A DNA stretch of 64,000 nt from Megalonaias nervosa (Eukaryota > Mollusca > Bivalvia > Unionida > Unionidae): contig JAECUM010017308.1 of NCBI GenBank assembly GCA_016617855.1, positions 1 to 64,000 on the forward strand, given 5' to 3'. Made by a program: the position numbers and the translations under genes. Numbering within the stretch: the stretch's first letter is position 1; each line of letters begins with the position of its first letter. This document shows positions 1,242 through 17,679 of this stretch, piece by piece. Under the pieces are notes generated by a model. The model was given only the letters and a program-made list of their open reading frames with translations, was not told the origin of the DNA and searched no databases.

Positions 1242-1246
1242 GATGC
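1242..1246. repeat. Left target-site duplication GATGC
   Basis: GATGC directly precedes the first base of the left terminal inverted repeat. The same five bases directly follow the right one at 17675-17679. Retrovirus-like DDE integrases leave staggered-cut duplications of about 4-6 bp; Polintons are usually reported with 6 bp, so 5 bp is slightly short but exact. Confidence 0.75.
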
Positions 1247-1430: not shown

Positions 1431-1463
1431 TAAATTAAACAGCCATTATAGATATTATCAATA

Positions 1464-1676
1464 ATGAGTATTGAAGAACCACACTCAGCTAAATTAGCTC
1501 GGGTGCGACTAAAGGCAATTAAAAAATATCTACCTGTTCGTGATTCTGTTAAGCAACAACTACAATCGCGTCAGGAATCTCAAGTTGAATTTGAGGAGGA
1601 TACAAAACGATTATTTAAACCTATCACTAAGACCACTAAGGGTATTCTACCTGTGTTAGAAAAACTGCCGAGGTAA
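1464..1676 (+). CDS. Small basic protein, possibly the N-terminal part of the next ORF
   Basis: The first ORF inside the left terminal repeat gives 70 residues, basic and predicted helical, with no motif I recognise. The ATG sits in a CAATAATG context shared by several genes of the element. It ends at TAA just after an A5 run (1660-1664). The next ORF's frame is open from 1640, through the end of this one, and on through its own first ATG at 1751. The two may therefore be halves of one gene split by a one-base change in the A run, or joined by frameshifting. The position beside the capsid genes suggests a virion-associated role, but this is only inference. Confidence 0.5.
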   Translation: MSIEEPHSAKLARVRLKAIKKYLPVRDSVKQQLQSRQESQVEFEEDTKRLFKPITKTTKGILPVLEKLPR

Positions 1677-1750
1677 CTGGAAAAACAGCTGAAACAACTC
1701 AGAAAACGAGAAAGCTTCTTGAAGAACTTCCAGAAAAAATAGCTGCTGCG

Positions 1751-2626
1751 ATGCCAGTCCCGGAAATACCTGAGGATGAAGATCAACCTGAAGGTGCTGA
1801 AGCAGAAGATGATGAAGCAGAAGGTGTTGAACAAAAGAGTCGTGCAATAAGTACTGCTGAATTGATAAATAAATTTGATGAAAAAATTATTAATACAATT
1901 AATACCATTGACCTACAACAATTAGCTAAATTTGCTTTGAATAGTTTTAGTCAAAGAGGTAAATTAATGAAACCTGAACACGCAAAAGACATTAAATCCA
2001 GTAAACAATGGCAAAAATATTTATATCGTATACGTATGAATGTTGAACAAGCTAGAGATAATGATCCATTATATCAGTATTATGATAAGGAAATTGATAA
2101 ATTAATTCAATCAAGAAGAGAGGAGAAAGAACAAAGTAAAAAACCTCCAAAACAACAACAACAACAAAAATCACCAGTATTACAACAATTACAAGAACTA
2201 AAACAAGAGCTAGAACAAAAACAACAACAACGACGAGAACAACAACAAAAAGAAGAATTTGCAACATTACCACCATCACCACAACGAGCACAACAACTAC
2301 AACAAGAGCTACAACAACGAGAACAAGAACGACAAGAAACAATGAGACGATTGAGATCACCACGACAAACTGAGGAAGAATATCAAGATCCTGGCGCAAC
2401 TGGAAGTGGTCTAGGAAGTGGTCTTATTACTTGTCCCAATAATGTCCTTGCTGATGTCGATCGACTAGAAATTCTCATTGGAGGAAAACGAGCTGGTAAT
2501 AATTCATCAGAAATCATTAATGAAGCAGCTGATATTTGCAAACGATTATTTACAGGCGGTATCATGGATATTAATGTATATCGGTCTCTCATTAATGAAA
2601 TCGCCGATGACTACCATAGTGATTAG
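1751..2626 (+). CDS. Gln-rich coiled-coil protein, virion-associated candidate
   Basis: This is a 291-residue protein in three parts: an acidic N-terminus (many Glu and Asp in residues 1-35), a helical region, and a long Gln/Glu/Arg-rich stretch (about residues 134-215) written mostly in CAA codons and likely to form a coiled coil. A more ordinary C-terminal region has a GSGLGSGL stretch. The frame is open upstream of this ATG back to 1640, overlapping the preceding ORF, so the true N-terminus may lie in that ORF across a frameshift. I do not recognise the family. Its place before the minor and major capsid genes suggests a structural or scaffolding role. The open frame opposite it at 2052-2399 is a by-product of the CAA repeats. 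Confidence 0.6.
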   Translation: MPVPEIPEDEDQPEGAEAEDDEAEGVEQKSRAISTAELINKFDEKIINTINTIDLQQLAKFALNSFSQRGKLMKPEHAKDIKSSKQWQKYLYRIRMNVEQARDNDPLYQYYDKEIDKLIQSRREEKEQSKKPPKQQQQQKSPVLQQLQELKQELEQKQQQRREQQQKEEFATLPPSPQRAQQLQQELQQREQERQETMRRLRSPRQTEEEYQDPGATGSGLGSGLITCPNNVLADVDRLEILIGGKRAGNNSSEIINEAADICKRLFTGGIMDINVYRSLINEIADDYHSD

Positions 2627-2659
2627 ATACAATTAGTGATAAAGTCATTTAATAATAAG

Positions 2660-3154
2660 ATGATCATACACAATACTCGTGGACCTACCATGGTCAGGGT
2701 AATAAACTCTCGATTACCAGTATACAAAACGACCTACGGAGATGGATTAGGTGATGTCGTTCAGGGTCTGTTTAGAAGAATAGCCCCAAAAGCAATACCG
2801 ATTACAAAGCAACTAGGAATGAAAGCTATTGATGTTGTTCATGAAAAAGGTATAAGCGCTGTTGGTAATATTGCTAGCAAAGCATTCTCAGCAATCAAAG
2901 ATAGACTATCACGATTAATACGCAGACCACAAGCGACCCGACCTCAACCTGTGAAATTGGCTAGCACTGAAGTGATGCCCGCAAGTGTAAGTAAAATAAT
3001 AAATCAAGCCGCTAATCAAAAACTAGCGGAGTTGGCTGATGTACCAATGTCGGAAAAGGAAAAAAATATAACCGCTAGTCTGATAGCAGGAAGTGGTCTC
3101 ACTTCCGAAGTGGTCTTCGTGTTAGACGAAGACGATAATAATAAAGATGTTTAA
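2660..3154 (+). CDS. Putative minor virion protein upstream of the capsid gene
   Basis: From the ATG at 2660 this is about 164 residues; a second ATG at 2690 has a better start context (CCATGG) and would give about 154. The frame also runs back to a GTG at 2636, which is not a likely eukaryotic start. After a basic N-terminus come YGDGLGD and an amphipathic stretch ending in an Arg-rich patch (RLSRLIRRP). Its stop overlaps the next gene's start by 8 bp (3147-3154). Basic, amphipathic small proteins beside the capsid gene in adenovirus-like elements are often minor capsid or membrane-active proteins, but no family was recognised here. Confidence 0.6.
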   Translation: MIIHNTRGPTMVRVINSRLPVYKTTYGDGLGDVVQGLFRRIAPKAIPITKQLGMKAIDVVHEKGISAVGNIASKAFSAIKDRLSRLIRRPQATRPQPVKLASTEVMPASVSKIINQAANQKLAELADVPMSEKEKNITASLIAGSGLTSEVVFVLDEDDNNKDV

Positions 3155-4574
3155 GCGCGTATCTGACCCCGCGTTTGACATGGATGCACCAGTTCTCAAA
3201 GATGAGTCTGTGCGCGATTATCAGTATTATTCTTATGACGCTCGAATTCCAGATCAGCGTGGACGAATTGAACTACAGGTTCAAGATACAAGCAGATATT
3301 TCTTACCCGCTGAAGCATTTATTGAAGTCGAAGGTGAAATTATAAAGACAGATAATACCGAGTACGCCGCTGAGGATAGAACTGGTTTTGTTAATAATGG
3401 TATTATGGCGTTATTTGACAGCGCTACGTACATGATTGACGGAAAAAATATTGAATCAATTCAGAAAGACGTTGACGTTGCAACAACAATACTTGGCCTT
3501 GCAAGATACAGCGATGATTATTCAAGATCAGCTGGTCCATCAATGATGTTCTCAAAAGATACTTCTGACCACCCTGACAATAGAAATTATAATTCAGTAC
3601 AAACACCACGGAATACTGCAGTCGATCCACAACCAGCTGGAATGATAGACCGGCCTGCTGCTGATTTTTCGTTATTGCAAAGTATTAATCCAGAATTCAA
3701 CTTAGGATTTACAGCACGTCGAGCAATGTTAAAGGGTAATAGGAAAACATTTTCTTGTGTGATTCCACTGTCACATATCTTTGGATTCTGCAGACACGTA
3801 CGAAAGGTTATTTTTGGAGCCAAACACACAGTTGTACTTGTGCGAAAAAGCGATGATAATGATGCAATGTGGCACGTTGAGGGAGTTAATGATGCTGTAA
3901 CTGCGGCACTTCATGGTAAAGTTATACTGACCAAACTTTCGCTGTGGATGCCAGTGATGACTCCAACAATATCTGAAGAAGATCAGTTACTATCTTTTAT
4001 GAGTCAAGGTGGTAAATCAACGTTATCATGGTTAACGATGACCACAGATACTACTCAAAGTGCAATTAATGGTCTATTCACATGGCAAATAGCTTCTCAG
4101 CAAGGTGTTTCTGCACCGCGACATATATTTATTGCACTTCAAAATGTTGCACGAGTAAATAATCAGACACAAAGTATAATGATATTTGACAAACTTGGTG
4201 TTTCTGAGGTTTCATTAAGGATTAATGGACATCAAGAACCATCTGAGGATATATTACTGAATTTCGATCAAAATCATGTAGCACGTGCATATCATCGTCT
4301 TATGTCGTTCATGGGACGTGATCAAAATATTGATACTGGTTTACAAATATCTCAGTTAGATTTTACAACGCTGTATCCGATTTATTACTTTTCACTAGAA
4401 CATTTAGATTTAACCAGACAATCTGTTGTAGATATTCATTTTCGAGCTCGTGTGACTCGAGGAGTTATTGTCAATTACAGAGCAATCGCCGTTATACTCA
4501 GCGATAAATCGATGTTACTCGAAGGTGTTGGTGGACGAATGAGAGTTATTGATGCTCCAGTAGAAAATATATAA
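3147..4574 (+). CDS. Major capsid protein, double jelly-roll type (hexon-like)
   Basis: This 475-residue protein would form the main shell subunit of a Polinton/adintovirus virion. The size, central position and neighbours (protease, penton-like protein, ATPase) fit. Motif-like features include an N-terminal YQYYSYDARIP segment, a beta-rich pattern throughout, a mid-protein run PVMTPTISEEDQLL, and a C-terminal YPIYYFSLEHLD segment resembling the conserved 'YP-I-F-L' end of Polinton capsid proteins as I recall them. The frame is intact from start to stop. It overlaps the preceding gene by 8 bp. The double jelly-roll fold is inferred from family context, not shown; structure prediction would settle it. 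Confidence 0.82.
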   Translation: MFKRVSDPAFDMDAPVLKDESVRDYQYYSYDARIPDQRGRIELQVQDTSRYFLPAEAFIEVEGEIIKTDNTEYAAEDRTGFVNNGIMALFDSATYMIDGKNIESIQKDVDVATTILGLARYSDDYSRSAGPSMMFSKDTSDHPDNRNYNSVQTPRNTAVDPQPAGMIDRPAADFSLLQSINPEFNLGFTARRAMLKGNRKTFSCVIPLSHIFGFCRHVRKVIFGAKHTVVLVRKSDDNDAMWHVEGVNDAVTAALHGKVILTKLSLWMPVMTPTISEEDQLLSFMSQGGKSTLSWLTMTTDTTQSAINGLFTWQIASQQGVSAPRHIFIALQNVARVNNQTQSIMIFDKLGVSEVSLRINGHQEPSEDILLNFDQNHVARAYHRLMSFMGRDQNIDTGLQISQLDFTTLYPIYYFSLEHLDLTRQSVVDIHFRARVTRGVIVNYRAIAVILSDKSMLLEGVGGRMRVIDAPVENI

Positions 4575-4617
4575 AATATTTTCTAAACATGTAATTAGAT
4601 CGTTCATAATATTAATA

Positions 4618-5097
4618 ATGTCATATCATCACGTTAGTGTGAGTCTGACTCCTGGTCAGATTAAAAAGCTACAATCAGCATCAAAAAATAACTGTGGAAT
4701 AAAAATATCGCTAAAGCGAGAACAGATGACCGGTGCAAATAAACTATCGTTGACCGAGCGTCAGTTCAAAAACTTCAATGACGCTAAAAAATCAAATAAA
4801 GGCGTCAAACTTAATCTTTCTGCGGGCGCCATCAAAGACGTTGCTAAATCGGGTGGTATATTTCCACTTCTCGCAGCTATACCAGCTTTAATAGCAGCTG
4901 CAGCCCCAGCTGTTGCAAAAGCAGCTGCGCTAGGTGCTGTTGGAACAGCTGCTGGAATGGCGTTAAAGAAAGCAACCGGACAAGGAATCAAGAAAAAGGG
5001 AAACGGTCTAAGACTACCAGGAACCCCGTATTCGGGGTACGGAAAGGGTCTAAGACTTCCCGGACAGTTTACTAATATCACCTATGTCCAATTTTGA
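4618..5097 (+). CDS. Hydrophobic pX-like minor virion/core protein
   Basis: This is a 159-residue protein. The N-terminus is a basic region of repeated Leu-Thr/Ser helical units (LTPGQIKKL, LTERQFKNF). A strongly hydrophobic Ala-rich segment follows at about residues 79-118 (IFPLLAAIPALIAAAAPAV), long enough for one or two membrane-spanning helices. The C-terminus is a basic Gly-rich tail with two copies of the phrase GLRLPG. This layout is a familiar small protein next to the protease in adenovirus-like Polintons, often compared with adenovirus pX or pVI. The Gly-containing tail could be cleaved by the neighbouring protease. It overlaps the protease gene by 14 bp, so the two are probably co-expressed. 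The ATG is in a TTAATAATG context. Confidence 0.7.
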   Translation: MSYHHVSVSLTPGQIKKLQSASKNNCGIKISLKREQMTGANKLSLTERQFKNFNDAKKSNKGVKLNLSAGAIKDVAKSGGIFPLLAAIPALIAAAAPAVAKAAALGAVGTAAGMALKKATGQGIKKKGNGLRLPGTPYSGYGKGLRLPGQFTNITYVQF

Positions 5098-5485
5098 TTT
5101 ACTTAATGCTGCTAAGCAACTAAAAATAAAAAACTTCAGAGGTGTTTTTATGCGCGATCAATTACCAAAAAAACCAAACAATATTGAAACCGGTATCATT
5201 AATCTCGATAAAAACTCTGGCCCAGGCACGCACTGGGTCGGATATGCAATTGATCCACGTGGAATTATTTATTTCGATTCGTATGGATTAGCACCACCAA
5301 AAGAATTTTTAGAGTACGTTACCGGCGATATTCCAATCTGGTATTCAACGCTACCAACACAAAAATTAACTGATCCTCCAATATGCGGTCGTGAAACCCT
5401 CGCTGTGCTTGATGCTGTATCAAAATCAACAGCACCACCTCATAAAGTCGTGCACGCGTTCACTACACTACGTCATAACACTTAA
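5084..5485 (+). CDS. Adenain-like cysteine protease (virion maturation)
   Basis: A 133-residue cysteine protease of the adenain/Ulp1 fold that would cleave virion precursor proteins during maturation. Visible catalytic elements, in the family order: His50 in GTHWVGY, Asp65 in IIYFDSYGL, a candidate oxyanion Gln93, and the nucleophile Cys101 in PPICGRETLAVLD. It is shorter than adenovirus protease (about 200 residues) but in the usual range for Polinton proteases. The start overlaps the pX-like gene by 14 bp. The usual aromatic residue after the Cys-Gly is replaced by Arg-Glu. The frame is intact. Confidence 0.88.
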   Translation: MSNFDLLNAAKQLKIKNFRGVFMRDQLPKKPNNIETGIINLDKNSGPGTHWVGYAIDPRGIIYFDSYGLAPPKEFLEYVTGDIPIWYSTLPTQKLTDPPICGRETLAVLDAVSKSTAPPHKVVHAFTTLRHNT

Positions 5486-5504
5486 ACAGATATCAGTAAA
5501 TATA

Positions 5505-6620
5505 ATGGTAGATATTTACGGAAGATCTACTCGCAAAGATCAGAAGAAGGTCGATTTATCTAAATATGCAACTCTTGATCAGCTCAGAAATGAAATCGAT
5601 GATTTATTAAATATCACAAGTGTGGATCAAAATGAAGTCGTCGTTTTTCAGGACAAACAAGGACGATTAAAAACGAGTAACATACAACTACTAGATGTAC
5701 TTGTACGAATTCCCAACGCGGTTGTTAATAATATCGTTACTTTTACTGATCAAGGTAAAATATAGGATTCCGGTAAATCGGTTAACGATTATGTTAAGAA
5801 AACTGGTGATGTATTTACCGGTGACATTATTATGTCAGGAAGAAAAATTACATATCTTGGAGATCCAATCGCAAATACAGACGCAGCAACAAAAAAATAC
5901 GTCGATGATCAAGAATCCAAGTACGTGTCAGTGCGCGGTGGTATAATGCGTGCATTTCTCGACATGAATAATAATGGTATTAATAATCTCAGAACACCAG
6001 AAACAGATTTTGACGCTGCAACGAAGAAATACGTCGGCGATAAGGAAATTCCAATAACGACTTCGTTAACGACAATCAATGATGGAATTGCTGCATTTAG
6101 AACTGATTATATTAATCATGTACAAACATTTCTAAATTTTCGTAGAAATGTAAACAGATCTATTAATGACTTTTTTGGAACTCCACCAGTCGTTGACATA
6201 AAACTTACCGACATTAAGATGAAAATCAACGATATTGTTAGTGGAATTCCTAATATCGTTGAAAAAACAAATCTAGTAATAAAGTTACTTGCTGGAATGC
6301 CTCACAAGCAGATCTTCAACGTAGTATACACAGTAGCATCAGGATTAGGAGTATGGACACTGCAAGATAATAATCTCAAACACACCGCAGAAGTCACTGG
6401 CGTATACAGGCTGTCTATATTTAGCATAGCAAAATTCAGTATATTTACTACATTTCCATGGCGTCATTCAATCGATACTTTTTCTGGAGTTGTATCCGTC
6501 ATAATAAATAAAGATGCGGAAGAAACATTTCTGCTGGAGGCATCTGATAAAAATTTAACCAGAGCACTATACTGGTGGTGTTTGGAATTTGTGTGTGAAA
6601 CTCCTCAATTAGTTATCTAG
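5505..6620 (+). pseudogene. Fibre-like attachment protein gene interrupted by an amber codon
   Basis: One reading frame runs from the ATG at 5505 to TAG at 6618, broken only by a TAG at 5763-5765 (codon 87). The first part is a 86-residue head. The second part has repeats of the type found in phage and viral tail fibres: TGDIIMSGRKITYLGDP followed by DAATKKYVDD, then a second round with DAATKKYVGD, then a long predicted trimeric region and a beta-rich C-terminal domain with Trp and Cys residues. Such proteins usually form trimeric spikes that contact the host cell. A related gene occurs at the right edge of the window. The amber codon could be decay, a sequencing error, or readthrough; nothing downstream of it suggests loss of frame. 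Confidence 0.8.
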
Positions 6621-6629
6621 ATAAGTATA

Positions 6630-7103
6630 ATGAATCAAGAGTCATTTATCGATGTTCAACGTCACAGATACACTCAAGTATGTGAGTGTCAAACCAAACT
6701 AAAAAATATCATCGACGATTACACGATAAAGGTAAAAAAATATCGGCGACGTATGGTTGTTATTGATATAATGGTATACTCGGTTTCTGCTGTTATTGCT
6801 GGAACTGGATTATTACTATCAACAATAACGATGACAGCGCCTGCAGTTGTAACAATTATAGTTTCAACGGCAACAACATGCGCAGGTATTTTCAGTATTA
6901 TCGCTAAGAAAATATCTACGTGTACAAATGATAAACTAAACGAGTACATAATGAAATTGCACACAGCAACATCATCTTATTCTAAACTATCATCTTATCT
7001 TTCGGCGTATCTCAGCGATGGTAAAATATCCGATGAGGAGTTCGCAACGATAATGGAAATTTATCATGAGGCATTCAAAGTGGATGATAAAGTGGAGGGT
7101 TGA
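6630..7103 (+). CDS. Small membrane protein with two hydrophobic helices
   Basis: This is a 157-residue protein. An N-terminal helical region has Lys/Arg-rich segments (VKKYRRRM). A long hydrophobic stretch follows, residues about 44-92, rich in Ile, Val, Thr and Gly (GTGLLLSTITM and TIIVSTATTCAGIF), enough for two membrane helices with a short turn. A polar helical C-terminus ends in an acidic segment. It starts 9 bp after the fibre gene and 35 bp before the penton-like gene. The decayed element at the right edge has a hydrophobic ORF of similar design in the same place (62340-62797, minus). This is a recurring but uncharacterised Polinton gene as I recall; a virion or host membrane role is inferred. 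Confidence 0.65.
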   Translation: MNQESFIDVQRHRYTQVCECQTKLKNIIDDYTIKVKKYRRRMVVIDIMVYSVSAVIAGTGLLLSTITMTAPAVVTIIVSTATTCAGIFSIIAKKISTCTNDKLNEYIMKLHTATSSYSKLSSYLSAYLSDGKISDEEFATIMEIYHEAFKVDDKVEG

Positions 7104-7138
7104 ATTTCTGCTCTATTAAATACGGAGTATTTTAAATA

Positions 7139-8599
7139 ATGTCATCGTTAGAATTACTTCAGCAGATCGTAGCTAATACAACGCCGTCAAAAACTACTAT
7201 GATATCATTAAGTTCAACCAATCCTGAATTTAGCGTTAACTTTCCAACCGCAATTCCAGCAAAGGAAATAGCGCTAGCACAATTACGAGTTTATCATAGC
7301 TGGCCTAATATTAGGTCAAAACCGTTTGGTGGACAACCAGCAAATAATTCACTGGTATTTGCGAATAAAAATAAACCTGATGGACGTCCTGATTGGCAAG
7401 TTGTTGGAATTACAACGGGTAGTTATCAAATAGACGAGATTAATGATGAGTTCCAACGCAGAATTATATCTATCACAGGGAAAGAATCTAAAATAGCGAT
7501 TACTGCTTACGAACCAACACTATCAGCGGTGATTGAAATAAATTCTCCTCATTACCTCGTAGATATTTATCAGAGTTCGATTAGATCTGTGTTAGGATGG
7601 CCTGAAGTCGCACCTATTTATAACGGGATTTCAGAACCAACTAAAAATGAATTTAAAACGAGTGAAGAAAAATTCATTAAAAATCCAGAATATCGAAATA
7701 AAGATCCATGGAACTTAATAGTATTTAAATGTGATCCAAACAACGATATATATTACTTTACCGATCTTGACGGTAAGAGGATCCCCAAGATGGCTGGATC
7801 AGCATTTACGGTTATCAGGACGCCAGGGGCGCGGGATCGAGATATTGTTAATGAAATATTTTTTAAAAGATTTATAGATGCTCTTAAGCCTGAATACGAT
7901 AAAATATTTAATGATTTAAGAAGTTTACTTATTTCATTATCACAACATTATGACGATGTTGTAAAAAATCAAGTAATCGAAACAATAAAACATTTAAATG
8001 GGATGTTACTCGATTTATACATCGCCAGTCGAAGTATTATGGGTGTTATAATTGATATTAAAATTCCTTTCGCAAGTCCAGAACGTAAGCAATTATTTCT
8101 TGATCATTATAAAATAACAGAAAAAGATTTACAAACATTTATTATAGCAGATTTAAATAATGCTAAAATGAAGAAATCACTTGATGATCTTATTGAAGAA
8201 TATTATCCCGGAGTAATTGATTCATGGAAAAAAATAGCCCCACCACCGGTTATACTAAAACACAATAACAACCCTTTTGGTGCCGGACGTCATATATCGC
8301 CAGGCATTGTAAACATAACATCAGTTATTGCAGTCAATCTGGTATGCGATGTTATTGAAGGTAGCTATCAGGTAGATCTTTCTAAGTCTAACCAGGCCCA
8401 GCAAGGGTACATATTATACAGTTTTAGCCCATTAGCCCCACCAGGTTGGTTAATTGTATCAGAGCCAATTAACCCCGTGTACCTGCGAGTTCATAATCCG
8501 TTATTATCAAGGATACACTTTAAACTTACAGACCAAAGCAATCGCATTCTGGACACAAGAAATGAAGAACTAAATATAAATCTGTATGTGAAATCATAA
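7139..8599 (+). CDS. Penton-like minor capsid protein
   Basis: A 486-residue protein with an intact frame and the size and position of the Polinton minor capsid (penton, single jelly-roll) protein. The N-terminal half contains strand-rich text with PTAIPAKEIALAQLRVYHSWPNI and VLGWPEV. The middle is helical. The C-terminal quarter (VNITSVIAVNLVCDVIEGSY, then ILYSFSPLAPPG, and finally IHFKLTDQSNRILDTRNEELNINLYVK) matches the ending I remember for these proteins: an I/V-rich strand, a PPG turn, and 'LTDQ..R.LD.R.EE..I.L'. It would occupy the fivefold vertices and hold the fibre. It starts in the AAATAATG context seen at several genes here. The assignment is by pattern recall only. Confidence 0.72.
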   Translation: MSSLELLQQIVANTTPSKTTMISLSSTNPEFSVNFPTAIPAKEIALAQLRVYHSWPNIRSKPFGGQPANNSLVFANKNKPDGRPDWQVVGITTGSYQIDEINDEFQRRIISITGKESKIAITAYEPTLSAVIEINSPHYLVDIYQSSIRSVLGWPEVAPIYNGISEPTKNEFKTSEEKFIKNPEYRNKDPWNLIVFKCDPNNDIYYFTDLDGKRIPKMAGSAFTVIRTPGARDRDIVNEIFFKRFIDALKPEYDKIFNDLRSLLISLSQHYDDVVKNQVIETIKHLNGMLLDLYIASRSIMGVIIDIKIPFASPERKQLFLDHYKITEKDLQTFIIADLNNAKMKKSLDDLIEEYYPGVIDSWKKIAPPPVILKHNNNPFGAGRHISPGIVNITSVIAVNLVCDVIEGSYQVDLSKSNQAQQGYILYSFSPLAPPGWLIVSEPINPVYLRVHNPLLSRIHFKLTDQSNRILDTRNEELNINLYVKS

Positions 8600-9121
8600 T
8601 GCGTTATCATAACAAAAAAAAAATATCCGGATGCATAGTGTTTGTCTATGATACAATACAATACATCATAGCATATACTTGTCAATATAACCTTGCCTGC
8701 GGTCTCATTCAATGCTAATCGGCAACTTCCCTATGTGGCAACCAGTAACTGACAAAATAATAATACTGTATTCTTTGTTTACATAAAATCCGCGCACAGA
8801 TTTCTCATATTGCACAATCGAAATCTATTGTCTAAAAGGCTGCGTAATTAGCTCTGTTATTGATTATTCCATAACGGCTATGTATCTGTGACCGATTACT
8901 GCGTAAAGTTATTTTAAGAACATCCGCTATGACTAAATCAATATCCTTGGTAACGGCTTACGCACAGTGTTAATGCAGAATTATATATATTTTTTGGAAA
9001 TTAGAAATATAAAATCCCATTTTACACAGAAAACTGTGGTTTTTGTTAAGAACACTGTAGTTTTTAGGAAATAGGCTATTGGTAAACACATACTAACTTT
9101 TTCAGTATGTATTTATAACAA

Positions 9122-9190
9122 GGTCCGATAGCTCAATTGATAGCGCGTAGAAACTCTCATCCGGAGGGTCATGGTTCGAAACCCGAGAAA
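9122..9190 (+). other. tRNA-like sequence (SINE head or tRNA fossil)
   Basis: It contains an A-box-like TAGCTCAATTGATAGCGCG and a B-box-like GGTTCGAAACC at the right spacing, with CTC-TCATCCG-GAG between them as a possible anticodon arm. The acceptor strands do not pair well and the D arm is imperfect, so a working tRNA is unlikely. It is probably the head of a tRNA-derived SINE that landed in the element. Confidence 0.4.
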
Positions 9191-9427
9191 GACATATGTC
9201 TGCGGGAGGCGATTTTAGGCCAAGATTTATAATCTATTGGGGGCTCCAGCCCCCTACCCCCGTCTTCAGAGTACACCAATCCACTACGTCAACACGTGGT
9301 GGATTCACTTTTGTGAATCACCCATTGGTTGATCATTATGGGTTGGTGTGCTGGCGTGAAGACGGCATTTCATCATATCATCATCATCATCATCATATCA
9401 TCATCATATCATCTCATCAAAAATATA

Positions 9428-9874
9428 CAGCGGGGGGTGATATGAGGTCGTGACCTTGTGACTTCACTAAAGGGGTACCCCACACAAGGGCCATTCCAAA
9501 AGACACAATCGCAAAACTAAAAATAAACCTAATGAGATTCCAGGTCACAAAGACCAATCAGCCTTTGAGTTCCTAGAGTTTCGGTTACGGATATCTAGGA
9601 ATTCTTGTTAGGCAATAAACAGAATCTGATTGGTCACTAAAATAAGACCTACACGTGTATAAACAACCCTCTGAGTTCCTAGAGTTTCGGTTACGGATAT
9701 TTAGGAATTCTTTCGGGGGTAAACAAATAACACGTACAGACAGCCCTCTGAGCCTCTAAAGTTTCGGTTTCGGATATTTAGGGGTTCTCTTGGGGGTAAA
9801 TGTCAAAACAAAGAACCTCATTAGGTTTATCTGATACAACTATGGAATGGTAGATCGAATGTCACCCCGCGCTG
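9428..9874. mobile_element. MITE-like DNA transposon nested in the Polinton
   Basis: The ends read CAGCGGGGGGTGA and, in inverse orientation, CAGCGCGGGGTGA. They are flanked by TATA on both sides (9424-9427 and 9875-9878), a likely 4-bp target duplication. Further matching inverted blocks lie inside (CCATTCCA with TGGAATGG; ATAAACCTAATGAG with CTCATTAGGTTTAT). The middle carries three direct repeats of about 55 bp, each a hairpin. No coding capacity. Confidence 0.65.
9560..9803. repeat. Three hairpin repeats inside the MITE
   Basis: Copies lie near 9567-9605, 9672-9713 and 9750-9791. Each has a stem such as TTCCTAGA with TCTAGGAA around a loop containing TTTCGGTTACGG. In copy 2 one base of the stem changes to a G-T pair; in copy 3 both arms change (CCTCTAAA with TTTAGGGG) and pairing is kept. 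Conserved pairing with changed bases suggests the folded form matters, or mattered. Confidence 0.6.
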
Positions 9875-9918
9875 TATATTTTTGTTTATTTTTATATTAA
9901 ATATACACTTATTATATA

Positions 9919-10353
9919 ATGAATTTTGAAAATATCAATGTCATTGTTTCTGCGATTAAAAAATTACAACATAACGGTATCAATGTATCTGACAATCTTA
10001 ATGCTGAAAAGATTCTATGTGATTTTGACTCATTACAACAACGAAAGAACGAGAACAGATTCACGCTATCCGCTGATTATAAATTTATGAAAATTATCCA
10101 ACAAGGAATGTTAAAGTCACTGGCAACTGTCACTGATGATCAAGTAAAGTTGTTTGTGCCTCTCTCAAATGCTATTGACAAAATCAAGCTAGAATTATCT
10201 CATGGATACGAACAGAAAAAGATCATGAACTATCGTATAAGACAGTTAAGAGAGCATTGTGAAAATACGAGTGAAAATACGAGTGAAAATGACAGCGATA
10301 ATGATGGACCATTGACTGTGACAATAGCTAAACAAAATCCTTGGGAAAATTAA
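9919..10353 (+). CDS. Unknown protein with acidic repeat tail
   Basis: This 144-residue predicted mostly helical protein ends in an Asn/Ser/Glu/Asp-rich tail with a short duplication (ENTSENTSEN) and the C-terminal phrase NPWEN. The ATG is in a TATAATG context like other genes of the element. I do not recognise it. It stands alone between two repeat-rich non-coding blocks, rightward like the virion genes. The acidic tail could bind basic partners, but no function is assigned. Confidence 0.55.
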   Translation: MNFENINVIVSAIKKLQHNGINVSDNLNAEKILCDFDSLQQRKNENRFTLSADYKFMKIIQQGMLKSLATVTDDQVKLFVPLSNAIDKIKLELSHGYEQKKIMNYRIRQLREHCENTSENTSENDSDNDGPLTVTIAKQNPWEN

Positions 10354-10972
10354 CATTCTGCTTAGTATAATGCAACCTACACACGTGGATATATTGTATC
10401 CCAATCATTATGTTTCAGCAGGTATCAAGTACAATATTACCCGTTGTGTAAAGTTTTTCGTTGAGTTTGCTAGTTTTCGTTGGGTCAAAACCCCAGGAAG
10501 GTTAACGGGAATTAACATTAGGTTTTAAATTTATCGATGAAAAACTGGTTTTTTCCAGTTCTTTTGCTCGTATTGTGTAGTTTTTTGCTAGCGAATTACG
10601 ATAAAAATCCGGAAAAAACCAGTTTTTGATCGATAAATCAAAAACCTAATGTTAATTCCCGTTAACCTTCCTGGGGGTTTCACCCTCAGAATTTGTCAAA
10701 ATCTGACTGATTTTCACTGATTTTTGGTCATTTTTCATGCAAAAAACGAGATTTTCGAACAAAAAACGCGGTTTTCAGAACAAAATCAACGAAATAAAAA
10801 CTTTATAAAAAATAATTAAATCTGATTAAGTAAAGAATGTTTTGTGCCATCGAATACAGTTTATGTAACCCACTTCTGGAGAACTATCTTAAGATCTTAT
10901 AATATTTTCTGAATGCAGATTGCAAGCTAAATAATATCATGTACTATTGCTTGTAAAAGATACTGAAAAGTT
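10354..10972. other. Non-coding block with a large palindrome
   Basis: No gene seen. The centre is the palindrome at 10489-10680. To its right, 10690-10800 has short AT-rich direct repeats (AAAAAACGAGATTTTCGAAC and AAAAAACGCGGTTTTCAGAAC). The leftward homing endonuclease gene ends at 10973. Confidence 0.6.
10489..10680. repeat. 192-bp palindrome (long hairpin)
   Basis: The left arm, 10489-10558, and right arm, 10608-10680, pair almost throughout, including AACGGGAATTAACATTAGG with its exact complement CCTAATGTTAATTCCCGTT. The loop is about 50 bp. It could be a foldback transposon remnant, or a structure used in replication or transcript ending between the converging genes at 9919 and 11503. 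Confidence 0.7.
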
Positions 10973-11503
10973 TTATGCTTGCCTCAGTCTCGCTTGATCA
11001 TCTGATACCAAGTACTGGAAAATAATATTCTGCCCAAATTTGAAAGAAAAAGTAGATCTTGTAACCCCGTCTGCCACGTATTTCACTGAGCTAGATGCTA
11101 TATTAAAATATTTACTAGCGGAATAAATTGACTTGAACATAATTTCTTCTCCAGATTCTGCATTCACTGATTTAACAGGTTTTACAGTATATCTTGCGCG
11201 ACCTGTTTTCCCAAACTTACAGTTTTCACTTTGCGTGATAATACGTAGATTTCCAAGTGAATTGTCAAGTTTATTGCCGTTGATGTGGTCAACCACATAC
11301 CCATCTTTGATCAATCCAAAATAACACTCGATCACAAATCTATGTGATAAATAATGTTTATTTCCTTTGGTATTAAACGCAAGATAACCAGTATTGGTAA
11401 CACTACCGACTGGTTTTTTCAACCTGCAATTCCTGATGATGCCATCGCGTGATGCTTCATAATTGGTAAGGATTGGATGTGACACAAACTCATTTTGTTC
11501 CAT
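10973..11503 (-). CDS. HNH homing endonuclease with NUMOD-type DNA-binding tail
   Basis: A 176-residue protein. The N-terminus (about residues 9-50) resembles the NUMOD4 module of GIY-YIG and HNH homing enzymes (YEASRDGIIRNCRLKKPVG). The middle is an HNH_3 nuclease: LSHRFVIECYFG, then DHINGNKLDNSLGNLRII with the HNH His-Asn-Asn. The C-terminus has a NUMOD1-like helix-turn-helix: VKSVNAESGEEIMFKSIYSA followed by ASKYFNIASSSVKYVADG. Enzymes of this kind cut a specific DNA site and spread their own gene. It is leftward, against the neighbouring virion genes, and 13 bp downstream of the Cys-rich gene. It is common in phage and giant viruses, so it is probably a selfish gene carried by the element. 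Confidence 0.85.
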   Translation of the reverse strand: MEQNEFVSHPILTNYEASRDGIIRNCRLKKPVGSVTNTGYLAFNTKGNKHYLSHRFVIECYFGLIKDGYVVDHINGNKLDNSLGNLRIITQSENCKFGKTGRARYTVKPVKSVNAESGEEIMFKSIYSASKYFNIASSSVKYVADGVTRSTFSFKFGQNIIFQYLVSDDQARLRQA

Positions 11504-11516
11504 TTATATATAATAT

Positions 11517-11822
11517 TTATTTGTCTAAATCATTGTTTTTTGAAAATCTAGCGAGATAATCTTCTTCGGTCTTTATAGGAGAATCAGCGTTATATTTTTT
11601 ATCGTAATATCGTTTCAGCTCTCTGTACTTTTTACCACCGCATTGCGCACACAGCTGAGTCTTTCCTCGCACTCCAGCACTACACACAATACACGGTTTT
11701 GGTCCTAAACTCCCGTTCCTGACGCATTGCATATGATAACTACAGTATTCATTCACGCATGTTCTGTTACACGGAGACGTATAACCGATTTTTAGCCAGT
11801 GGCATTGATTTGGTTGAATCAT
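11517..11822 (-). CDS. Small Cys-rich zinc-binding protein
   Basis: From the ATG at 11822 (complement) this is about 101 residues; an upstream in-frame ATG at 11843 adds seven. It has many paired Cys and His residues: CNRTCVNEYCSYHMQC, then PCIVCSAGVRGKTQLCAQCGG followed by KKYRELKRYYDKKY. These could bind two or three zinc ions. The charged C-terminus is helical. It precedes the homing endonuclease in the same direction and is divergent from the polymerase-like gene. I recall similar Cys-rich small proteins in Polintons, but know of no function; nucleic-acid binding is a guess from the zinc-finger style. Confidence 0.65.
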   Translation of the reverse strand: MIQPNQCHWLKIGYTSPCNRTCVNEYCSYHMQCVRNGSLGPKPCIVCSAGVRGKTQLCAQCGGKKYRELKRYYDKKYNADSPIKTEEDYLARFSKNNDLDK

Positions 11823-11872
11823 ATACAAAAGCTTAATGTTCAATTAAATATATATTTTGCCCTAATTATAAT

Positions 11873-11950
11873 ATGGAAGAATTAATGATTGAACCCTACG
11901 CAACCAGATTCGATCTTGACAGACTACCCGAGTATAGATTTAGTATTTAG
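11873..11950 (+). CDS. 25-codon ORF directly upstream of the polymerase-like gene
   Basis: An ATG at 11873 opens a frame of 25 codons that ends in TAG at 11948-11950, immediately before the ATG at 11951, and is in the same frame as the large gene. It is either a short upstream ORF affecting translation, or the original N-terminus cut off by an amber codon. Nothing in the peptide is recognisable. Confidence 0.3.
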   Translation: MEELMIEPYATRFDLDRLPEYRFSI

Positions 11951-14900
11951 ATGCAAGATCTAGCTTTAACGAATGCGGATATAACTAAACGTATCCGTGA
12001 AGCCAAAAAGGAATTTCATGACGATGGTGCGGTTCATGCATGGTCAACATTCAGAGTTGGAAATGTTTCTAATACGATGAATGACAAACGAGGAAGAGTA
12101 ATCATTAACCACCTTGATAATCAAAAATATTTTATTTTAATAAAATTTATTGTAAATACGGAAGAAGATACTTGGATTATTCGTGACAAGCGCGATCCCG
12201 TCCGCGTGCAGTCAGGAAATAATATCTTCTTGAGTAATAAATCTAAACCAGGAATACTAACTGGTATAGATAAACCGTATTATGAGCGATCGTACCCTGT
12301 AACTGCGGTTGTCTATGGAATATTTCCGCTGAATAATAAACCTAATGTTGGGGATCTCAAACCGATGAAATTGTCATCCTTGACTTCGTCAAGAATAAAT
12401 TGCGTAGCTGAGCGAGTTACAGAACGCTTTACAAACGCGATACGTGGTAATGGTTTAACTGATTTAAGACTTAAAAAAATAAATGCATGGGCAGAGTCGG
12501 TTAAAGATACCGGAGCGTCTATCAGCGACGTTGCTGAGCTAGAGAAGAAATTAAGATTTCCAATAGCAGTAAAAACATTAACCGGAGAGATTTTGTACAA
12601 ACCGAAATATATAAAAAATGGAGCTCCGATAGATATTATTGATCATAACGCGCACGCATGGACTGCTGCAGTAACAATATTTCCACGAGATAGAACGGTT
12701 AAATTTTATGACGGTGATATCTTTGATTTTATTAAAAATATTAGTAAAACCGATCCTGTTTCTGTTTGGTTATTTCAGAGTTCGGAATATGATCATTACG
12801 ATCAATTTGTACGACCTAACGGTGATATTTATCGTACAGAATCTCTCCATGAGGAAATGGAACATCTTGCACAACGCCTTTGGCGTGAATATACCTCTGA
12901 TGATCTCATAGTTAGACAATTATTGAATAACTGTTTTACTGTTCCGTCAGTCGCTGCTCATTTCGCTCAGGAGAAAAATTCATGGAAAACGACACGATCG
13001 GAATTTCTTGAAGATGTCAAGAAAAGTTGTATAGAATATGGTCACGGTGGATTATGGAACACCAAATACGATTACAACGATGTTATCTCGGTTGATATGG
13101 TAGCATGTTATCCTGGGAGTTTTCTTGGATATGGAGCATGTTCTAAATACTTTAAGAGATTCGGACACCCTACACATGACATGACCAGGGTTGCGATAAA
13201 CGGACCCTTACCAGATTTTGACTTAACAGGATTTGCTCACGTAGAATCATTCGAGTTTAGAGAAGATCTCCATGCGATTACTTATATTTGGTTCGGAAAA
13301 CATTTTTCAGAGCGACGTTGGGTTCCGATAGTACTATTGCGATATATGCTTGATGCTGGATTTTTAATACCGTTGAGAGTAACTGGAGTGATTATATCGT
13401 ATAGTTCACAGAAGCAAGTTTGGTTACCAGAACCGGACAGATTTAATATCGATGATACCAGGAAAGAATTCCCTGATATTGATGAAGATCATGTCATTAA
13501 AATAAGTAAATGCAGGAACGAGTACGATGAAAAACTTGCTAAAGATCTTGGTAGAAAGATAATCGGTAAGTTTACACAAGGAGGATCACATGATTATAAA
13601 CGAGCGTGTACAAGATTGATTATGGACGATGCTGAACTAGATTTTATAATCGCTGATACAACGGAGAAAAACACATTTATAAACCGATGTAATGCTTATT
13701 TATCAGATGGAACAAAACTAGGTACTATTGTGAGCTATCTTGATGGCGACTCACCACAGTTTACTCATTTAAGATCTTCGATGTTAGCTTTTGTTTCGAT
13801 AAATTTATTGTCGATGATAAATAGATTTCCTCGTTACGCTGTTAGAGTTGCTACGGATTCATTTTATGTACACAAAAAATATAAAGATTTATTAAAACTC
13901 GGTAATGGTGAATGGGGCACATGGAGGATAAAACAAGAAAATATACTTAGTTATTCTGAATCTGCCGATGTTGAAATTGCGGAGACATATTACAAAAATA
14001 ATAATCAAATATCAAAATCATCTGCACCATCTGTGTACGATCCTGTATCTAGACATAAGACCGTTTATCTTAATGGGTGTGGTGGTTCAGGTAAAACAAC
14101 TCGTGCGATTAATTTATTTATGAATAATAACTCAGATATAATTGTTTTGACACCTACACATAAACTTGCTAGAGAAATAAAGCAACGAAAAGTAAAATCA
14201 TGTACATACCATAGTTTCTTTAGATGGTGCGGAGATACGTGGACCCCATCGCGGATGGGTGAAAAATATATACCTAGGTATATTATATGGGACGAGATAT
14301 GCACGGTGTCGTTAGAAACACTAAAAACATTTCTTGATTGGTTGTTATTGAAGAATACTGCTGTGATTATGTGTGGCGATCATGGTCAACCACCACCCTT
14401 TGTTGGACAGTCTCCACATGAATGGTTGAAAACATTTGTAGATTATTACGAAGAAATAAATGATGACCATAGAGCTATTGATGAACCGCTGAAAGAACTT
14501 AAAAGATTAATCAGACTTCAGCCAGATCAAATACAATGCGAGATTCTGCGTAAAGTAATTGCAGAAACTTCTATGAATGATTTTTGGACTTTATGGAGAC
14601 CTGCTGATTTGATAGTCGCCAGTAGAAAAATAGTTCGTGATGAACTACAAAAGAAATTATTTACGTTACATAAAGAAAAGTTTCCGGATCTACATGTACC
14701 TTTGTGTTATCGCCCAGCAGATACTCGACGACAAAATATTGAAGTTGAAATACCAGGTGCCTTGGTTCCACCGAGGGTACAGAATCTTGTCTTGAATGAT
14801 ATCGTGTTGGTTGCTGTTGATGTTGTTGAGAGCGCGTTGAACATGGATAAATCGCCATGGACGTTAGGATACGCTATAACAATTCACTCGTCGCAGGGAT

Positions 14901-15322
14901 TAACTATAACTGATACTAGAATCTGGATTGTAGATGATCGTATTGAATGGTCAAATTTAGTCTATCTCGCCGTATCTCGAGTCAGGAGAATATCGCAACT
15001 GCGTAGGGTTATTGTAGATTACGTAATAACTGAAGAAATCACTAACAATGTCGATATCAATAAAAAATTAGTCAGCTATAAGCAGTTTGACAAAAAAAAT
15101 AAGCGTGATTTTGATCTTGATGCTGAATTTATTATAACACTAAGACAACAACAGAACAATCATTGCGCAAGTTGCAACTGTAATATGTCATGGCAGTGTT
15201 TTAATCCAAGACAATTTACCGTAGACAGAATTAATAGCGATCTCGGTCATACACGTGATAATGTGATGCTGACCTGTCTTGAGTGTAATCGACGTCGAGG
15301 TTCTGGACGTTTACAAAATTGA
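11951..15322 (+). CDS. PolB-like DNA polymerase / SF1 helicase / HNH nuclease fusion
   Basis: A 1123-residue intact protein, the likely replication enzyme. Residues about 1-370 are of unknown fold; I see no clear exonuclease motifs. A family-B-like palm follows: motif A with Asp382 (VDMVACYPG), a weak motif B (GKFTQGG, from 539), and motif C ATDSF with Asp636 (the first Asp of the usual DTDS is Ala). Next is an SF1 helicase: Walker A GCGGSGKTT (709-717), motif II WDE (Asp781), GDHGQPPPF, then HSSQG and YLAVSRV near the end. The last 70 residues are an HNH-type zinc nuclease (CASCNC from 1072, TVDRIN, GHTRDNVMLTCLECNRRRG). It stands where Polintons usually carry a protein-primed PolB. The 3' end overlaps the integrase tail by 12 bp. 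Polymerase activity is inferred; the helicase call is strong. Confidence 0.85.
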   Translation: MQDLALTNADITKRIREAKKEFHDDGAVHAWSTFRVGNVSNTMNDKRGRVIINHLDNQKYFILIKFIVNTEEDTWIIRDKRDPVRVQSGNNIFLSNKSKPGILTGIDKPYYERSYPVTAVVYGIFPLNNKPNVGDLKPMKLSSLTSSRINCVAERVTERFTNAIRGNGLTDLRLKKINAWAESVKDTGASISDVAELEKKLRFPIAVKTLTGEILYKPKYIKNGAPIDIIDHNAHAWTAAVTIFPRDRTVKFYDGDIFDFIKNISKTDPVSVWLFQSSEYDHYDQFVRPNGDIYRTESLHEEMEHLAQRLWREYTSDDLIVRQLLNNCFTVPSVAAHFAQEKNSWKTTRSEFLEDVKKSCIEYGHGGLWNTKYDYNDVISVDMVACYPGSFLGYGACSKYFKRFGHPTHDMTRVAINGPLPDFDLTGFAHVESFEFREDLHAITYIWFGKHFSERRWVPIVLLRYMLDAGFLIPLRVTGVIISYSSQKQVWLPEPDRFNIDDTRKEFPDIDEDHVIKISKCRNEYDEKLAKDLGRKIIGKFTQGGSHDYKRACTRLIMDDAELDFIIADTTEKNTFINRCNAYLSDGTKLGTIVSYLDGDSPQFTHLRSSMLAFVSINLLSMINRFPRYAVRVATDSFYVHKKYKDLLKLGNGEWGTWRIKQENILSYSESADVEIAETYYKNNNQISKSSAPSVYDPVSRHKTVYLNGCGGSGKTTRAINLFMNNNSDIIVLTPTHKLAREIKQRKVKSCTYHSFFRWCGDTWTPSRMGEKYIPRYIIWDEICTVSLETLKTFLDWLLLKNTAVIMCGDHGQPPPFVGQSPHEWLKTFVDYYEEINDDHRAIDEPLKELKRLIRLQPDQIQCEILRKVIAETSMNDFWTLWRPADLIVASRKIVRDELQKKLFTLHKEKFPDLHVPLCYRPADTRRQNIEVEIPGALVPPRVQNLVLNDIVLVAVDVVESALNMDKSPWTLGYAITIHSSQGLTITDTRIWIVDDRIEWSNLVYLAVSRVRRISQLRRVIVDYVITEEITNNVDINKKLVSYKQFDKKNKRDFDLDAEFIITLRQQQNNHCASCNCNMSWQCFNPRQFTVDRINSDLGHTRDNVMLTCLECNRRRGSGRLQN

Positions 15323-16283
15323 GCTTGGTGGTAATTGCGTATCCTCAGGAATTACTTGCAATTGTTCACGTACAAATCCACGTTGAGGGGCTGTAGAATC
15401 TAGTCTGTAGATTGGAGGTCTACCAGTGGATCTCACCACGCTAGAAATTTTATGTGTAGTCACGCTCCAGATAGGATCGGTTGCTCTTTTTTTTACCACC
15501 TTCAAGTTCGCCAGGTTCATATAAATATCTTACAGTTACATTACCTAATACTGGTTGAGAGAAAGATTCACGTCGTTGTATTGGTATATATATTTTTTTG
15601 ATCGCATTAGAAGGTTTCATGGAAGTTGCACGTGTAATTTCATTATTCAACGCAGTTATCACACTCGGTAATCTTGCAACCCATTCACGAGATCTATCCT
15701 TAAAGTCAGTAGATATTTCCTTTGCATATTGGTATCCAAATAACCACTCAGCAAGTGTTCTATTAAATCGTTCAACGATTGCCTGATCACGATGAATTTC
15801 AGTATGTCCTCGTCTGATTTTAACGTTATGTTTCTTCATCAACGATGATACTACTCCAAGAAATTCTTTACCAGGATCAACTTGTAATAACCGTGGCCAT
15901 CGTAGACCACCACTTTGATAAATGCGCTCAAACGCAGATGCAACTTCAGATGCTGTCTTTGTTGATAATGGCTCCGCTTCTTTGTATCTACTCGCAACAT
16001 CAACGACAGTTAACGCATATCTATACGTGTATTGACGTCTACGTGTTTTAATGGTATCGTGTGGTAAAAATAAAATATCTGCTTGATGAACTTCATTAGG
16101 AACGCTAACATCAAAATGCGCGTACTGAATTCTTTTAGGTGGACTCAGGAAGATTTGCCATATTGCCTGTCGTGCTAACCATGATGCAGCAACATTACGT
16201 GAAACTTTTGCTGCTTCGGCGAGTTTACTAATCGCTGCTTTACCTCTCCAATACCCTCTCGGGGAATAATAAACAGATTCCAT
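15311..16283 (-). pseudogene. Retrovirus-like DDE integrase, frameshifted near the C-terminus
   Basis: The main frame (15450-16283) encodes 277 residues. A helix-turn-helix-like N-terminus (AEAAKVSRNVAASWLARQA) precedes an rve core with the catalytic triad Asp69 (HQADILFLP), Asp136 (QVDPGKEFLG) and Glu171 (DQAIVERFNR); the Asp-Glu spacing is 35, as in retroviral integrases. It would insert the element into host DNA. The usual chromo-like C-terminal domain continues in another frame (to 15311, with RATDPIWS and RGFVREQLQ). The break is at an A8 run (15487-15494, plus strand T8). The change is of +1 type, so not a canonical -1 slip; one extra base or a sequencing error fits. It lies 16 bp downstream of the PLA2 gene in the same direction. 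Confidence 0.88.
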
Positions 16284-16299
16284 TATGATAGTTATATAA

Positions 16300-16806
16300 T
16301 TAATTACCAGCCCCTAGCACTAGTTTACCTTTCATAGCAGTTTTTACTAGAAAGCTAGCGAGAGATTCTCTGAGAGATTTATTAGGTATAGAATTTAATG
16401 CGTGAATCAATTTCACATCTGCGAGATGTCGTTGTTGCAAATCTGGACTTTTATACGCGACATCATGAACGTGACACGCTTGATCAATCTTATTTACTGG
16501 ATACTCTCCGGGTTTTGGTTGATCTCGTTCGTCAAGTCGGATATCGAGACGAGTTCCAGGACCACAATAATTATATCCGGGTAAATGTTTCTCACCGGGG
16601 TATTTAGTCCATGGAGTTCCTGGTAATTTTCCTAACGAAGCAGCAATATCCCCCCCCCCACCTGTCTTTGATGAAATAAATTTATATTTCTTGGTGCCAC
16701 ATTTCACACACTTACCTGTAAGTGCGCGTCTTTTATTTTTTGTTGTTATTGTCGTTAATTCAGCAGTATGTGTAGGTGCTCTGCATCGAACACAATATAG
16801 ACTCAT
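16300..16806 (-). CDS. Zinc-ribbon plus phospholipase A2 protein
   Basis: From the ATG at 16806 (complement) this is 168 residues; the frame is open further upstream, but that would run into the ATPase gene. Residues 3-41 form a small zinc ribbon (YCVRC and GKCVKCGTKKY), like the DUF5679 domain of large DNA viruses. Residues about 75-125 are a PLA2 domain: calcium loop YCGPG (80-84) and active site CHVHDVAYK with His114-Asp115. PLA2 domains of this compact kind occur in parvovirus VP1 and have been reported in adintovirus-like elements, where they are thought to act on membranes during entry. The start is 12 bp from the oppositely oriented ATPase start. A C8 run (plus strand CCCCCCCC) encodes a Gly run between the domains. 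Confidence 0.85.
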   Translation of the reverse strand: MSLYCVRCRAPTHTAELTTITTKNKRRALTGKCVKCGTKKYKFISSKTGGGGDIAASLGKLPGTPWTKYPGEKHLPGYNYCGPGTRLDIRLDERDQPKPGEYPVNKIDQACHVHDVAYKSPDLQQRHLADVKLIHALNSIPNKSLRESLASFLVKTAMKGKLVLGAGN

Positions 16807-16818
16807 ATTATTTATTAT
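16807..16818. promoter_or_regulatory. Divergent start region of the PLA2 and ATPase genes
   Basis: Only 12 AT-only bases separate the two opposite start codons. Any promoters must lie within each other's coding sequences or in this tiny AT tract, which suggests virus-like compact promoters. No known box is identified. Confidence 0.3.
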
Positions 16819-17484
16819 ATGGATATAATTGACTTTTCTGCGACAAGAAAACAAGAGCCAGTAAAGCACCATCCAGCGTTACCAAATTCTATCAGAATGA
16901 TTATAATAGGTCCGTCCGGAAGTGGAAAAACGCAATTATTACTTAATCTAATAATGAGATGGCTGAAGTGGGATAAATTATATTTGATAGCGCCATCTGT
17001 AGATGATCAGCGATGTTACGAAGTACTTAAAGATTTTAATGAAAACGCAAAATTGTTGCATGAAGACAGTGAAGTCATAGACTTTATTACTGATATTGAT
17101 GAAGCGCCATCTGTAGATGATCTGGATGGATTCATTAATAACCTCGTGGTATACGATGATGTCATGCTGGACAAACAATCCAATCCAGCTCGGATATTTT
17201 CACGAGGCCGTCACAAAAACACAGACGTGATTTATGTTACACAGCGTTATACACAAATTCCAAAAGTGATCAGGGATAACTGTAACATTTTAGTTGTGTT
17301 CAACGGAGTTGATAATCATACGCTGCAAAATATTTATTATACTTGGTGTTCTGGGGACATGGATATGAACAAATTTAAAAATTTCTTTTCAAAAGCACAA
17401 GCTGCTCCCTTTGGTTTTGTAACAATAAATTTACATGATCCGAGGTCAAGATATCGTAACGGACTTGATACAATTTTTGGATAA
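16819..17484 (+). CDS. Packaging ATPase (A32/FtsK-HerA type)
   Basis: A 221-residue intact ATPase that would pump DNA into the capsid. Walker A is IIIGPSGSGKTQ (Gly-Lys-Thr near residues 37-39). Walker B is LVVYDDVM. A further conserved segment RGRHKNTDVIYVTQ has the Arg and Gln typical of A32-like and Polinton ATPases. The length is in the usual Polinton range (about 220-240). The stop is 6 bp before the right terminal repeat, so it is the last gene of the element, diverging from the PLA2 gene. Confidence 0.92.
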   Translation: MDIIDFSATRKQEPVKHHPALPNSIRMIIIGPSGSGKTQLLLNLIMRWLKWDKLYLIAPSVDDQRCYEVLKDFNENAKLLHEDSEVIDFITDIDEAPSVDDLDGFINNLVVYDDVMLDKQSNPARIFSRGRHKNTDVIYVTQRYTQIPKVIRDNCNILVVFNGVDNHTLQNIYYTWCSGDMDMNKFKNFFSKAQAAPFGFVTINLHDPRSRYRNGLDTIFG

Positions 17485-17490
17485 AAACCA

Positions 17491-17674
17491 TAGCAGCAGA
17501 GAGGGTGAACGACATACGCGTAGTGACCAGCACGTGAAAAAATCAGAAAAAATCTGGTCAATTAGAGAAGTTTTTACTGTTAAGGCAAAAACTTTTTTTT
17601 TAGCCTTCGTAGGAACCCTTAAATTTCAAAAATAAGGTCTCTGCAAAGTTGTAGGGTTCACCCTCCCTGCTGCT
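17491..17674 (-). repeat. Right terminal inverted repeat of the Polinton (184 bp)
   Basis: Reverse complement of 1247-1430 with one difference. It begins TAGCAGCAGAGAGGG at the inner edge and ends CCCTCCCTGCTGCT at the outer edge, followed by the GATGC duplication. Confidence 0.95.
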
Positions 17675-17679
17675 GATGC
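17675..17679. repeat. Right target-site duplication GATGC
   Basis: Identical to 1242-1246 and directly adjacent to the right terminal repeat. This gives an exact right boundary for the insertion. Confidence 0.75.

Follow-up and report, generated by a model that had tools for sequence, protein, structure and literature searches.

Within positions 1 to 64,000 of contig JAECUM010017308.1 from the bivalve Megalonaias nervosa (assembly GCA_016617855.1; this whole 64,000-nucleotide stretch is hereafter the window), we have identified a fusion protein that we consider likely to be the replicase of an endogenous DNA virus of the Polinton type and a member of the pPolB-S1H family (Tlr1-like helicases) that would work by protein priming within a single chain. 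The computed features that carry this reading are an intact frame, the order of its domains, their key residues, a helicase fold, an HNH family match, polymerase-type structural matches in Foldseek, purifying selection, and the setting of the gene in the element. The protein and its parts are as follows.

11951..15322, forward: pPolB-S1H-HNH fusion protein, 1123 aa (frame, homologues, alignment, structure model)
12023..12334, forward: residues 25-128, predicted terminal-protein domain of the Y-polymerase little-finger (LF/PAD) type
12293-12295, forward: candidate priming residue Tyr115
12329..12760, forward: residues 127-270, predicted vOTU-like cysteine protease
12401-12403 and 12644-12646, forward: OTU Cys151 and His232
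12761..13030, forward: residues 271-360, mostly helical linker (structure models)
13031..14020, forward: residues 361-690, putative protein-primed PolB-like palm with Asp382, Lys540 and Ala634-Thr-Asp636 (Foldseek, conserved residues)
14021..15040, forward: residues 691-1030, SF1B helicase of Pif1/RecD2 type, Walker A Lys715 (Pfam, PDB profile search, Foldseek)
15080..15301, forward: residues 1044-1117, HNH-type zinc nuclease domain, endonuclease VII families being the nearest (PHROGs; strand-strand-helix in the model)

A preliminary description of this DNA had reported one intact frame of 1123 codons carrying PolB-like, superfamily 1 (SF1) helicase and HNH motifs, and on both counts it was right: the frame starts with ATG and has no internal stop among the open reading frames of the window, and alignment places every motif where it had been read, with Asp382 in motif A, GKFTQ at 539-543, ATDS at 634-637, the Walker A motif around Lys715, DE at 781-782, motif VI Arg1010, and a C-terminal pattern of CxxC...DR...N...CxxCN. 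These motifs are not a product of chance, because 56 homologous proteins were found at E <= 1e-3 (30-64% identity), their named sources being the sea slug Elysia crispata, a Thiodiazotropha metagenome-assembled genome (MAG), and the arbuscular fungi Diversispora, Rhizophagus, Gigaspora and Racocetra. In the resulting 57-row alignment, with gaps set aside, the key residues are nearly invariant (D382 in 52/52 rows, K540 in 56/56, D636 in 54/55, K715 in 53/55, R1010 in 45/45 and C1112 in 44/44). Among the 35 rows that span the OTU Cys to helicase motif VI, 34 carry all eight key residues and the remaining row has a gap at one.

Copies and selection in the mussel genome

The genome (2.19 Gb, 54,709 contigs) holds at least 41 full or near-full-length copies of the replicase, including the window's own, a number that is a lower bound since scoring covered 41 of the 33,529 candidates from the first look; the other 40 show 93-96% protein identity. 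Because so many places carry the full or near-full frame, the fusion is one gene and not a chance read-through. Inner stops are absent from 15 of the 41, and our selection alignment comprised 28 copies, namely all 15 open ones and 13 with stops. Among the open copies the pairwise ratio of nonsynonymous to synonymous change (omega) is 0.22 overall, and it is similarly low in the N-terminus (0.23), OTU region (0.16), linker (0.26), palm (0.21), helicase (0.22) and HNH (0.27); over all 28 copies it is 0.25, with every domain below 0.3. Values this low throughout speak for the importance to the element of both the palm, for all its altered motif C, and, on smaller counts, the HNH.

When simple two-state codon variants are sorted by the number of copies that carry them, singletons lie nearer neutrality, at a ratio per site of 0.69 (149 nonsynonymous, 58 synonymous and 11 stops). 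The shared variants are constrained: those found in two or three copies have a ratio of 0.12 (18 nonsynonymous, 41 synonymous, no stops), and those found in at least four a ratio of 0.13 (33, 67 and none). For the HNH the numbers are small: 9 nonsynonymous, 3 synonymous and 2 stops among singletons, 0, 3 and 0 in two or three copies, and 4, 4 and 0 in four or more. From the more nearly neutral singletons and the constrained shared variants we infer that selection acted on the entire protein in the multiplying lineage, with decay following insertion.

In all ten copies examined further, a capsid protein lies in the expected region (77-98% identity in the aligned pieces; the match is partial in three copies and split in two pieces in one). 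Both element ends were found in nine of these ten, with an exact 5-bp target duplication in six of the nine; the other three have no exact duplication, and a 6-bp duplication occurs in none. In the match lists from other sources, compared by eye, no contig coincidence between replicase and capsid was seen.

As a separate observation, the capsid is more variable between copies (77-98%, 10 copies) than the replicase (93-96%, 40 copies), and synonymous divergence (dS) among the open copies is 0.25 in residues 1-140 against 0.07-0.14 in other segments. Both patterns would fit an exchange of parts between lineages.

Domains of the fusion protein and their possible roles

The C-terminal SF1 helicase, Pif1/RecD2-like in sequence and model, is beyond doubt. 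Helicase families are the only Pfam matches above cut-off for the whole protein (AAA_19, 1.1e-10; AAA_30, 3e-8), the PDB profile search returns helicases with weak rows beneath them (for example PacI, E 0.3, for the HNH part), and the PDB structure search with the whole model is dominated by helicases and says little on other parts.

The HNH region finds its best family match in the PHROGs endonuclease VII family phrog_1035 (E 9.7e-10), with a Pfam HNH match of 0.077 that lies under its cut-off, and its model has the strand-strand-helix form. Of the 45 rows extending as far as motif VI, 42 have the core; two of the other three lack residues in all or most of it, and the third is disrupted. At the position that we take to be that of the usual first catalytic His, the protein reads Arg1093 (43/44 rows, with the nearby His1100 in 44/44), and for this reason activity is not assured. 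Nonetheless, an endonuclease VII-like action at branched intermediates is an attractive idea, given the family match and the constraint. We tentatively propose that in this clade the HNH may be a permanent, functional component of a replisome built as one chain, in which it would serve as junction or nicking nuclease beside primer, protease, polymerase and helicase. An animal Polinton lineage could have had its genome taken over by this replisome, which would then have been amplified along with it.

A rather doubtful alternative makes the HNH a homing endonuclease that is carried as a passenger and spreads only itself. An origin by intein invasion has been proposed for the C-terminal GIY-YIG and HNH domains of the family (Krupovic et al., PMC11071308; this and the other papers cited by PMC number are drawn on in excerpt), a free HNH_3 gene lies close by at 10973-11503, the substitution of Arg for the catalytic His would suit a passenger, and the shared HNH variants are few (four nonsynonymous and four synonymous in four or more copies). 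However, the persistence of the core across the rows, the omega of 0.27 among the 15 open copies, the terminal rather than inserted position, and the endonuclease VII family as best match all speak against a passenger.

A divergent PolB-like palm is probably present at residues 361-690, to judge from its motifs and from Foldseek E-values; superposition is poor. The whole model matched the polymerases of phi29, mavirus, BadAztec1 and a densovirus, these being matches of the whole model and not of the palm by itself. With the palm alone as profile, Pfam gives nothing even at E <= 10, PHROGs matches no polymerase family there, and NCBIfam, searched with the whole protein, has hits to five models of helicases or relaxases and, weakly, to a TsaE ATPase model, with no polymerase among them. 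The earlier domain assignment was upheld for the helicase (Pfam) and the HNH (phrog_1035); for the palm it gains from the conserved motifs and the polymerase-type matches of the whole model. The spacing from His232 to Asp382 is 126-163 residues in 35 rows. The 3'-5' exonuclease domain is absent, because linker 271-360 is too short and mostly helical.

It is improbable, in our view, that the palm is a dead remnant in a protein that is only a helicase with accessory domains, the element being copied by a host polymerase. Position 634, elsewhere the first Asp of motif C, is Ala in 51 of 55 rows and Ala or Thr in all 35 full rows, and the title of Krupovic et al. 2016 reportedly calls the polymerase inactivated; the same title is said to include Polintons in what carries the fusion. 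Yet the motif A and motif B residues (D382, K540) and D636 are kept at the counts given above, and palm omega in the open copies is 0.21. Moreover, Krupovic et al. later predict the palm of Tlr1-like helicases to be active despite the lost Asp, because mavirus, pipolin and other active PolBs lack the same residue (PMC11071308).

At the N-terminus, model comparison finds residues 25-128 weakly similar to the fold that fused terminal proteins are reported to have; strands and helices come in the order expected of such a domain, and a conserved Tyr115 sits at the predicted priming place, in the expected loop. Residues 127-237 weakly match OTU proteases in the model, and Cys151 and His232 are invariant in the alignment. 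Foldseek with the N-terminal model gave no match at E <= 1e-3, its mostly unrelated rows including an OTU protein (A20, E 0.18) and polymerases of the Y family (eta, E 0.32 and upwards); Pfam with residues 1-280 alone as profile gave nothing even at E <= 10. Overall, the terminal protein does not seem to have been lost. Replication free of a terminal protein, as the preliminary description had suggested, with an HNH nick to start and polymerase and helicase to extend, is very unlikely: the HNH is real and conserved, and the weakness of the fold matches that back the terminal-protein domain weighs against our reading, but the element is linear with inverted ends, protein-primed polymerases are matched, and the N-terminal fold order, its Tyr, and the OTU-type Cys and His are as protein priming would have them.

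For the protein-primed replicase that we favour, we infer each catalytic step, the priming residue, the role of the protease and the HNH substrate as follows. The N-terminal domain would be a built-in terminal protein that primes on a hydroxyl (candidate Tyr115) at the inverted-repeat ends, and the OTU-like protease would release it from the rest of the chain. The palm, in which the first motif C Asp is replaced by Ala, would copy the strand, its metals being bound by Asp382 and Asp636. The Pif1/RecD2-like helicase would unwind the duplex and so compensate for the lost exonuclease, as has been argued for the family helicase (PMC11071308), and the HNH would cleave DNA, perhaps branched intermediates. 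A linear genome with inverted ends could in this way be copied by one chain that primes, frees its primer, polymerises and unwinds.

Relation to known systems

The preliminary description had taken the fusion for a candidate undescribed system, and here it is overtaken by the literature. The pPolB-S1H proteins occur in Polinton-like viruses (PLVs), in Tlr1 of Tetrahymena and in transpovirons, with the order terminal protein-vOTU-palm-S1H and a C-terminus that may be GIY-YIG or HNH (PMC11071308). Our protein shares the palm followed by the helicase, the C-terminal nuclease, the missing exonuclease, and a motif C without its first Asp; ahead of the palm, its predicted terminal-protein and OTU domains, with weakly supported folds, would complete that order, and the Cys and His of the putative OTU domain are conserved. 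By these features, matched in sequence and model to the excerpted description, it is a member of the described family. Its terminal-protein part appears LF/PAD-like, as reported for TvV-S1 (PMC11071308), and unlike Tlr1 and Mama, which have three globular upstream domains, it is predicted to have two and a helical linker.

Other fusions are more distant. The Oxyrrhis marina PLV protein, an independent Helicase SF1-pPolB fusion, likewise joins an SF1 helicase and a protein-primed PolB in one chain, but has the helicase at its N-terminus and keeps the exonuclease (PMC12721341), whereas here the helicase follows the palm and the exonuclease is absent. Cryptophyte PLVs fuse a nuclease to an SF1 helicase, as an N-terminal HNH or a C-terminal GIY-YIG, and their HNH-helicase adjoins an rve integrase gene in one cluster (PMC12220804); the HNH here is C-terminal.

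In the papers cited, the pPolB-S1H replicase is described from protist PLVs, Tlr1 and transpovirons. Here it belongs to an element present in many copies in a large animal genome, and our data thus add to its range an abundant Polinton lineage of an animal, one in which open frames and target duplications are found. They bear on two published questions, the activity of the palm and the C-terminal nuclease as homing passenger. A palm invisible to Pfam may also explain the elements without detectable polymerase in which Bellas et al. 2023 found helicases fused to an unknown domain (PMC10120064, in the excerpt). In the literature surveyed we found no animal-genome pPolB-S1H lineage, clade-wide constrained HNH or 5-bp duplication, although Krupovic et al. 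2016 and Starrett et al. 2021 may already have an animal example.

The element and its other genes

The replicase lies in an element whose features are as follows (no strand is given for the element or its duplications).

1247..17674: whole element, 16,428 bp, Polinton-type, inverted ends, termini AGCAGCAGGG...CCCTGCTGCT
1242..1246: left target-site duplication copy, GATGC, 5 bp
17675..17679: right target-site duplication copy, GATGC
1247..1431, forward: left terminal inverted repeat
17490..17674, reverse: right terminal inverted repeat
3147..4574, forward: double jelly-roll (DJR) major capsid protein (PF21738, 1.4e-17)
5084..5485, forward: probable adenain-like maturation protease (weak PF00770, 0.016, under cut-off)
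15450..16283, reverse: retroviral-type (RVE) integrase (PF00665, 4.6e-8)
16300..16872, reverse: DUF5679 zinc ribbon and phospholipase A2-like domain (PF18930, 3.2e-10; PF08398, 8.5e-12)
16819..17484, forward: A32-type packaging ATPase (PF04665, 9.7e-13)

The capsid, protease, integrase and ATPase genes and the inverted ends (about 185-186 nt, 99% complementary) identify the element, by sequence, as a Polinton-type endogenous virus. It resembles Polinton/Maverick elements and adintoviruses in these ends and genes (RVE integrase, DJR capsid, A32 ATPase, probable protease), and their pPolB in having a predicted terminal protein and vOTU fused to the palm; it differs from that pPolB in the absent exonuclease and the added SF1 helicase and HNH. 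The target duplication is 5 bp, whereas that of Polinton/Maverick elements is usually 6 bp. That the fusion replaces the polymerase normally found in Polintons, as first described, agrees with the Pfam scan, in which no PolB match appeared in 16 of the 18 element frames of at least 100 aa, the two outside the scan being antisense 2052-2399 (115 aa) and 4761-5081 (106 aa). The phospholipase A2-like domain is of the kind found in parvovirus capsid proteins.

The capsid protein has 81 relatives, including annotated ones in the freshwater mussels Sinanodonta woodiana (57% identity) and Potamilus streckersoni (60%). Six of the 56 replicase matches share both source and exact longest-contig size (5160, 6193, 6477, 7330, 5073 and 14105 bases) with an integrase match, among the 120 listed of 4509 integrase matches; this suggests, without proving, that the two genes lie on one contig in other genomes too. 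No relative was found in a viral contig collection scanned with the replicase and capsid alignments. A collection of genome contigs gave one match, on a 3,152-bp contig in an archaeal MAG that is presumably a contaminant. A tblastn search of phages returned 76 records at E <= 1; no record matched as much as 80% of the query, and the 30 listed of these all lie over the helicase or HNH.

Just upstream of the replicase, the free-standing HNH_3 endonuclease gene (reverse strand) has a weak NUMOD1 match and is adjoined by a frame at 11517-11843 with a weak zinc-ribbon match. Also within the element, an intergenic 83-bp inverted repeat (10482-10685) is 90% complementary, with 38 nt between its arms. 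A fragmentary second relative of the element lies at 62983-63957 on the reverse strand; its DNA is 76% identical to that of the element over 600 columns, and its frame 63045-63602 is 67% identical over 171 columns to the protein encoded at 5832-6620. Two frames outside the element, 29818-30696 and 49444-51399 (forward), encode C2H2 zinc-finger arrays.
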